DNA of 64,000 bases, taken from the NCBI RefSeq assembly GCF_000011005.1, contig NC_013665.1, forward strand, positions 1,961,501 through 2,025,500. Reading direction: 5' to 3'. Position numbers and translations under genes: made by a program. The stretch is from Methanocella paludicola SANAE (GTDB taxonomy: Archaea; Halobacteriota; Methanocellia; Methanocellales; Methanocellaceae). Below are positions 34,585 to 35,713 of this stretch, in pieces. Every line of letters starts with the position of its first letter. The stretch's first letter is position 1. The notes under the pieces are model-generated. The model was given only the letters and a program-made list of their open reading frames with translations. It was not told the origin of the DNA and searched no databases.

Positions 34585-34711
34585 GAATACCAGATTAATA
34601 TTTAACGGGACGGATATTTAAATCGAGCACATTGCGCTTCAGGTACTTCGAGGTCCGGACAAACCCGTAACAACCTATATATTTGGCCGATACGATACAG
34701 TAGAAACAGAC
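34585..34711. promoter_or_regulatory. Divergent promoter region, with TATA box for the leader transcript
   Basis: The plus-strand TATA-like box TATATATTT lies at 34676-34684. Transcription start about 25 bp downstream would fall near 34706, only a few bases before the ATG of the leader ORF at 34712. The minus-strand promoter of the MBL gene is in the AT-rich stretch near 34590-34620. No other gene is seen. Confidence 0.55.
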
Positions 34712-34789
34712 ATGAGCCAATCAGCCCTGAATATAGCTGCACTATCGTTTGGTTTTAACGGCAGCTACGGCTTTTGGCGGTTTAACTAA
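34712..34789 (+). CDS. Aromatic-rich leader peptide before ADH synthase
   Basis: A 25-codon frame starts with ATG at 34712 and ends with TAA at 34787-34789. Its C-terminal half is SFGFNGSYGFWRFN, that is four phenylalanines, one tyrosine and one tryptophan in the last 13 residues. It is the first ORF after the predicted start site and would be read from a nearly leaderless mRNA. The downstream gene catalyses the first step of archaeal aromatic amino acid synthesis. A GC-rich segment and a run of six T follow at 34797-34817. This looks like a transcription-attenuation leader; such control is well known in bacteria but not, as far as I know, in archaea. Confidence 0.5.
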   Translation: MSQSALNIAALSFGFNGSYGFWRFN

Positions 34790-34838
34790 GGACAACGCGG
34801 CCGGCGCTTGATTTTTTCGAACCCCTGCGGCTTTGTCC
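34790..34838 (+). terminator. Possible attenuator after the leader peptide
   Basis: GCGGCCGGCGC (34797-34807) is followed by ATTTTTT ending at 34817, the kind of GC-rich plus U-run arrangement at which archaeal RNA polymerase can stop. An overlapping pairing, GGACAA (34790-34795) with TTGTCC (34833-34838), would form a larger stem. The alternative folds make attenuation possible but are not proof. Confidence 0.35.
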
Positions 34839-34888
34839 CTGCATTTTTCGAAGATCATCAGCGTCGGCCCCGAAAGGAAGGACCGAAC

Positions 34889-35713
34889 ATGGATGGTAAG
34901 ACTATTCGCATGAGCCGGATCCTGGAATCCGGAAGGGCTGTCATCGTGCCTATGGACCACGGTGTCAGCGAGGGGCCTATCGAGGGCTTGACCGATATGG
35001 GCCGTATGGTATCGTTAGTGGAAAAAGGCGGCGCCAGCGCCGTGTTGCTGCATAAGGGCGTCGTGAAGTCGCTGAGTACGGCGCCGAAGTGCGGCATTAT
35101 CGTACACATGTCCGCCGGCACGAAACTCGGCATGGATAAGAACCGTAAAGTGATCGTATCTTCAGTGGAGCAGGCCGTCAGGCTGGGCGCGGATGCGATC
35201 TCAGTACACGTGAATATCGGGGGATGCGACACGGAGCCCGACATGCTCTGCGACCTTGGGGAGATAGCGGACGAGTGCGATGCAACGGGCATGCCGCTGC
35301 TGGCGATGACCTATGCCAGGGGCAAAAACGCCGCCGGGACGCCCGAAGAGATTGCCCACGTGGCCAGGGTCGGTGGGGAGCTCGGCGCCGACATCGTGAA
35401 GTGCCCGTACACAGGAGACATCAGGTCAATGCGCCTGGTAACGGACGGATGCCCTGCTCCCGTAGTGATCGCCGGCGGGCCCAAATGCGAGAACGACTAC
35501 GAGGTGCTTAAGATGGTAGAGGACGCCATGGCCGCGGGCGCGATCGGCATCTCGCTGGGCAGGAACATATTCCAGCACGCCCGGCCCGACCTGATGACCG
35601 CGGCGCTCAGGGCCGTCATCATCGACGGCATATCGGCGAAGCAGGCATCTTCGATTCTCAGGGGCTATGTGAAGGAATCAGCGGTCGGGCATCTTACGGT
35701 GGCTATGCATTAG
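34889..35713 (+). CDS. 2-amino-3,7-dideoxy-D-threo-hept-6-ulosonate synthase
   Basis: The 274-residue class I aldolase-fold protein matches the archaeal ADH synthase (AroA'), with the N-terminal RAVIVPMDHGVSEGP, KCPYTGD containing the Schiff-base lysine, and the C-terminal phosphate-binding GGPKCENDYEVL and GAIGISLGRNIFQH. It condenses 6-deoxy-5-ketofructose 1-phosphate with aspartate semialdehyde to start the archaeal route to dehydroquinate. GGAAGG lies just before ATG 34889, and a longer frame begins at 34808, without a good start. A related fructose-bisphosphate aldolase is the alternative; the MDHG and YTGD context favours ADH synthase. Confidence 0.85.
   Translation: MDGKTIRMSRILESGRAVIVPMDHGVSEGPIEGLTDMGRMVSLVEKGGASAVLLHKGVVKSLSTAPKCGIIVHMSAGTKLGMDKNRKVIVSSVEQAVRLGADAISVHVNIGGCDTEPDMLCDLGEIADECDATGMPLLAMTYARGKNAAGTPEEIAHVARVGGELGADIVKCPYTGDIRSMRLVTDGCPAPVVIAGGPKCENDYEVLKMVEDAMAAGAIGISLGRNIFQHARPDLMTAALRAVIIDGISAKQASSILRGYVKESAVGHLTVAMH

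Follow-up and report, generated by a model that had tools for sequence, protein, structure and literature searches.

A candidate leader-peptide attenuator for aromatic amino acid synthesis before an ADH synthase gene of Methanocella and other archaea

Leader-peptide attenuation is a textbook bacterial mechanism. In attenuators of the trpL, pheL and hisL type, the gene for the first step of a pathway is preceded by a short leader ORF with many codons for the pathway product, and the leader stop codon is followed at once by RNA with mutually exclusive folds. In translational attenuators of the ermC type, a ribosome stalled on the leader re-pairs the RNA and frees the start site of the next gene, while in the actinobacterial LEU element before leuA (PMC1262725) the codon run itself pairs with the Shine-Dalgarno sequence. 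Archaeal control of aromatic amino acid synthesis is little known apart from DNA-binding proteins (PMC6737238), namely TrpY of Methanothermobacter and TK0271/Tar of Thermococcus, which act on aromatic or Trp biosynthesis genes. According to a 2021 study, neither transcription attenuation nor antitermination was known from archaea (PMC8448881), a 2023 tool paper names archaea in a general sentence on regulatory uORFs, and uORFs of unknown function have been reported in Haloferax and Methanosarcina. In the open-access literature, outside which most subscription journals lie, no archaeal leader-peptide attenuator was found.

The locus described here, upstream of an ADH synthase gene in Methanocella paludicola, shares the layout of the trpL, pheL and hisL type, but is archaeal, lacks a conserved U-tract terminator, combines all three aromatic amino acids, and in Methanocella has a leader predicted to be nearly leaderless. 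As in the ermC type, stalling of a ribosome on the leader would shift the RNA pairing so that the start site of the following gene becomes accessible, although the signal here would be tRNA charging, not a drug. The target resembles those of TrpY and TK0271/Tar, but the candidate regulator is a leader ORF and its RNA instead of a DNA-binding protein. Judged from sequence, the locus is probably a ribosome-position-dependent leader-peptide attenuator that senses aromatic aminoacyl-tRNA and acts mainly on translation of ADH synthase.

The leader ORF and the ADH synthase gene of M. paludicola

The window is the whole stretch of DNA analysed (64 kb; positions 1961501-2025500 of contig C1 in a genome of 2,957,635 bases), and all features below lie on its plus strand. 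A TATA-like box (TATATATTT; 34676..34684), with a predicted transcription start at ~34706, precedes a leader ORF of 25 codons with an ATG start (MSQSALNIAALSFGFNGSYGFWRFN, followed by the stop; 34712..34789), which carries F, F, Y, F, W and F within its last 13 residues. A GC-rich stretch (34797-34809) and a T6 run (34812..34817) come next, then a Shine-Dalgarno-like GGAAGG (34876..34881) and the gene itself (34889..35713; ATG at 34889, stop codon 35711-35713). The initial annotation had pointed out the box, the aromatic ORF, the GC-rich stretch and the T6, and all four are present as sequence. It had also taken the downstream gene to encode the first step of aromatic synthesis, and this agrees with the score of the product against the TIGR01949 (ADH_synth) equivalog model, 315.6 bits, above the curated cut-off of 299.45, which identifies a 2-amino-3,7-dideoxy-D-threo-hept-6-ulosonate synthase (ADH synthase); the best PDB match is MJ0400 (E=8e-77).

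The M. paludicola genome holds two further ADH synthase paralogues (49% identity), one of them directly upstream of aroB', the DHQ synthase II gene, so that the leader-bearing gene is a third ADH synthase, a regulated isozyme. No aromatic leader is found in the regions upstream of the Methanocella paralogues. At ADH synthase genes of several other families that lack such a leader, and at the Methanocella aro operon, a palindrome like GTGCTACTATGTNACATACTAGCAC is conserved near the TATA box, roughly 30-60 nt before ADH synthase (L010, L011, L006, L007, L089-L095, L102, L117 and L118), and is likely an operator or repressor site.

Taken alone, the aromatic content of the M. paludicola ORF is only moderately improbable, barely beyond chance: dinucleotide shuffling of the intergenic region yields an ORF with at least six aromatics in its last 13 residues in 21 of 4000 cases, and such a tail is found in 4 of the 1210 short ORFs of the window. 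The case that the ORF is more than chance comes from its conservation across genomes, since these single-ORF statistics are weak.

Conservation and specificity of aromatic leaders

An aromatic leader lies before the orthologous ADH synthase gene in all four genomes of the Methanocella family examined (M. paludicola, L001, and three relatives, L002-L004), which answers the initial annotation's question of whether near relatives keep the small aromatic ORF. The leaders of the three relatives, found at the same place, read MYPIALKANNAFAFNFSFSYWFSF, (MM)MEAICYRLNNAVQSELSFSFGFCFWFN and MLPETNSNRLISVSSFSFGFGFWFY, each up to its stop; example tails within the family are FSFGFGFWFY, FSFGFCFWFN and FAFNFSFSYWFSF, again directly before the stop. 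The aligned tails stay in frame with one 3-nt indel, Trp is invariant, and the alternation of aromatic and small residues is kept; similarity in frame 0 exceeds that of column-permuted nulls (p=0.003). A TATA-like box is likewise present in 4/4 genomes, and by our reading its position puts the predicted start (box centre + 26/27) just ahead of the leader ATG, at a distance of 0-6 nt. The short ORF between the predicted promoter and the gene thus appears to be conserved as coding sequence, as expected of an attenuator.

A search of 394 genomes of the phylum with the pattern F.FWF[NY] plus stop gave, beyond two Methanocella aro loci, only chance-looking places, and a search of genome contigs for related loci returned solely a Desulfovibrio MAG. 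The narrow pattern misses divergent leaders of the sister order (the order of G085), which we take to be Methanomicrobiales; these emerged from direct reading of the regions upstream of ADH synthase in other families of the phylum, several of which have aromatic tails. The sister order comprises 162 genomes with an ADH synthase ortholog. A frame that ends no more than 260 nt from the gene and has at least five aromatics (5-11) in its last 14 residues is present in 83/89 upstream regions, and 69/89 have at least six (maximum 11), while the controls give 2/89 when the opposite strand is read and 4/112 for blocks lying farther upstream. Example tails, each ending at the stop, are FFSFFSFYYRFYYWYR, YRFYSFFFSFYQFFWY and YFGYFWYFY. 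F, Y and W together make up 53% of the last 14 residues, and in 72/84 leaders the last aromatic codon lies no more than one codon from the stop. In 82/84 cases no stop interrupts the frame over at least 40 codons (15% expected for each), and a GTG is usually present ~44-50 codons ahead of the stop. A third lineage, family f31, has an aromatic leader in 2/2 genomes (DFWFSFRYFYYRFSY and GFWFSYFSYWFSY, each followed by the stop); no such leader was seen in those members of the related family f5 whose upstream regions could be read. In each of the three lineages the ORF appears enriched in codons for the amino acids of the downstream pathway, as is usual for attenuators. Since the leader-bearing ADH synthase genes do not form one clade in the enzyme tree, the lineages with leaders may not be homologous cases.

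Two details of particular loci stand apart from these counts. At L135-L164 and similar loci of the sister order, the aromatic frame (with a GTG start) overlaps, ~200 nt ahead of the ADH synthase ATG, a 15-codon ORF in another frame that begins with ATG (MQGECFFAGECFYLx, then the stop); the two overlap because of a conserved direct repeat of 18 nt, GGTGAATGTTTTTTCGCCGGTGAATGTTTTTATC, which is possibly an operator. L132 (G125) has tandem ADH synthase genes, with an aromatic leader ending in AVFYRFFWYF at its stop before the first.

A functionless aromatic tail arising by chance or from low-complexity DNA (TTTAGC repeats) would account for a lone ORF that is not rare and for the TTTAGC-like repeat seen in L003, but this explanation is essentially refuted by leaders in 4/4, 83/89 and 2/2 genomes, with differing codons and controls near zero. 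Nor does the leader look like a small functional protein, or a trans-acting product, that is merely co-transcribed with the enzyme. The sister-order ORF, with ~45-60 codons and a conserved N-terminal part (VNVFSPVNVFIS), would suit such a role; on the other hand, the Methanocella leaders have only the aromatic tail in common, their middle parts varying freely, and the tail stops a short way ahead of this single gene and matches the products of its pathway in composition, so that we give a protein function very little credence.

The association appears particular to ADH synthase. No leader with at least six aromatics was found at 22 sister-order TrpE loci, no conserved His-rich leader before HisG in 27 sister-order genomes, no conserved aromatic-rich leader upstream of the Methanocella trp operon, and no conserved aromatic- or His-rich leader at PDT or aroB' in Methanocella. 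The sister-order TrpE loci (L225-L246) do have a conserved peptide end, (V)-M-P-[VL]-[ED]-W, 60-116 nt before the TrpE domain in 17/22, as the C-terminus encoded either by the gene upstream or by a short leader ORF (MKAIEKTGLVMPVEWTAA and stop in L240, for example). Third-base, V/L and E/D changes suggest that this end is conserved at the peptide level, and it is possibly a Trp-sensing nascent peptide.

RNA structure between leader and gene

In Methanocella, stem A starts at the first base past the leader stop: its 5′ arm a (GGACAA, 34790..34795) pairs with arm a' (TTGTCC, 34833..34838), and across the four sequences arm a pairs with a segment 24-41 nt downstream. Stem A has 6 bp in M. paludicola and 9-11 bp in the relatives. 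Stem B (10 bp, -19.1 kcal/mol) joins arm b (GGCCGGCGCT, 34799..34808), inside the GC-rich stretch, to arm b' (AGCGTCGGCC, 34860..34869), just before the Shine-Dalgarno sequence. In a hand alignment of the four related sequences, compensatory changes occur at 4/9 aligned pairs of stem A and at 5/10 of stem B. In M. paludicola stem B was matched by 0 of 1000 shuffles and stem A alone by 196 of 1000; stems A and B together were equalled by 0, 0, 5 and 3 of 1000 shuffles in L001-L004, respectively. In each of the four family genomes a covariance model of the region (R1) matches this locus alone (E 1e-23 to 1e-27; next match 0.27), with no second copies of the leader RNA elsewhere in them, and Rfam gives no match to a riboswitch or other curated RNA family up to E=10.

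Stems A and B are mutually exclusive, as they cannot coexist as nested helices. RNAalifold, applied to the plain alignment, returns stem A together with a helix C, in which b' pairs with the first aro codons and covers the start codon. As b' also pairs with b, the predicted RNA has two competing states, a:a' with b' on the start codon, and b:b'. In the relatives b' is thus also the 5′ arm of stem C, which is clear in three of the four Methanocella and weak in M. paludicola. Methanocella therefore appears to have the sequence potential for mutually exclusive helices whose first arm can be reached by a ribosome on the leader. When stem A or stem B was forced, B gave the open state in L002 and L003, there was no difference in L001, and L004 behaved in the opposite way; the consensus fold hides the start codon, but forced states are mixed between species. 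Pairing of the aromatic codon run with the Shine-Dalgarno sequence, as in the LEU element, is strong in L001 only, and was rejected as a general feature of these leaders.

Between leader stop and gene of the sister order lie 32-77 nt in 71 cases, and most of this gap is taken up by a hairpin that begins near the stop and reaches to or into the Shine-Dalgarno sequence. The gap is more stable than its shuffles, with a median z of -1.58 against -0.12 for a control of the same length, and compensatory changes are found in the hairpin within related groups. With a simulated ribosome on the last codon or stop of these 71 sequences, the predicted cost of opening the start site is lower by a median of ~1.5 kcal/mol, a modest effect (40 lower, 17 higher). 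The Shine-Dalgarno core is no more sequestered than in shuffles (median 0.46 unpaired versus 0.39), which, like the limitation of a clear stem C to 3/4 Methanocella, may distinguish these loci from the ermC type.

A hairpin directly between leader stop and Shine-Dalgarno, more easily opened in prediction when a ribosome is at the stop, is also what plain translational coupling would produce, in which the translated leader would open the hairpin for translation of aro without any sensing of amino acid supply. This simpler arrangement leaves unexplained why Phe, Tyr and Trp are the last codons in three lineages, and before this gene only, and we think it improbable.

The initial annotation had proposed the GC-rich stretch and the T6 run as a terminator. 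The T6 is absent in all three relatives, L002-L004, and is rejected in this role, while the GC-rich stretch is one arm of the conserved long-range helix B. A T5 a few bases past a' (34844..34848) has a U4 at the matching place in all relatives (invariant TTTT columns, alignment A2), and together with a small hairpin it forms a short terminator-like match in M. paludicola. A conserved U-run terminator was found neither in Methanocella nor in the sister order, where the hairpin runs straight into the Shine-Dalgarno sequence with no U-run; a conserved intrinsic terminator (hairpin plus U-run) of the trp/his type is thus missing before the gene. In the f31 loci (L277 and L278), runs of T7-T8 and another TATA-like stretch separate the aromatic leader from ADH synthase, and transcription termination or a second promoter is possible there.

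These observations bear on transcription attenuation, in which the leader ribosome would decide whether polymerase stops at a U-tract before ADH synthase, either intrinsically or with FttA/aCPSF1. The U4-5 run behind arm a' in all four Methanocella (ending ~8-10 nt on), the small hairpin with T5 in M. paludicola and the T7-T8 runs behind the f31 leaders are consistent with it; it is nevertheless doubtful, given that the T6 is not conserved, that L002-L004 have only U4 and that the sister-order hairpins are followed by no U-run. Of the translation-coupled attenuator put forward initially, the aromatic leader and the part played by the ribosome find strong support in conservation across three archaeal lineages, and termination at the GC-rich stretch and T6 is abandoned. 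Control of translation is favoured instead, since neither Methanocella nor the sister order has a conserved U-run terminator, and since the helices end at the Shine-Dalgarno sequence or start codon.

Proposed mechanism and its meaning

In the proposed attenuator, the leader peptide would be translated, and its ribosome would slow on the aromatic codons crowded against the stop when charged Phe-, Tyr- or Trp-tRNA is scarce. Helices are predicted to form in the RNA directly past the stop, and a ribosome at the leader end could reach their first arm; because the control codons crowd the stop and the helix arm lies directly behind them, a ribosome there must influence the helix. Its presence would decide which helix forms, and with it the access to the ADH synthase start site. 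The likeliest course is that a ribosome halted on the final codons covers arm a with its footprint, which would block stem A and let b pair with b', keeping b' from closing over the aro start codon, so that aromatic shortage would give more enzyme. The single hairpin of the sister order, which lies between leader stop and Shine-Dalgarno, would have an equivalent function. Stalls at earlier aromatic codons would leave arm a free, and ribosome queueing or a special role of the last codons has to be assumed for these. The direction of the response, shortage leading to expression, is drawn from physiology and not from the folds, because the forced-state folds disagree and the Shine-Dalgarno core is not additionally hidden.

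Beyond Methanocella, we put at about even the chance that the loci represent a widespread, terminator-less class of archaeal attenuator, possibly of multiple origins, in which a Phe/Tyr/Trp leader controls ADH synthase translation in three methanogen or methanogen-related lineages. The kind of mechanism is known from bacteria; what appears to be new is an archaeal version that serves all three aromatic amino acids and apparently has no terminator. That about 90 archaeal genomes share the layout suggests that a gene may be controlled in archaea, as in bacteria, by the slowing of a ribosome on an aromatic leader peptide. If true, archaea with these ~90 genomes would use the position of a ribosome on a leader ORF as a metabolic sensor, the principle of attenuation could work without an intrinsic terminator, and the link from tRNA charging through translation to gene expression would become testable in archaea at a natural locus.
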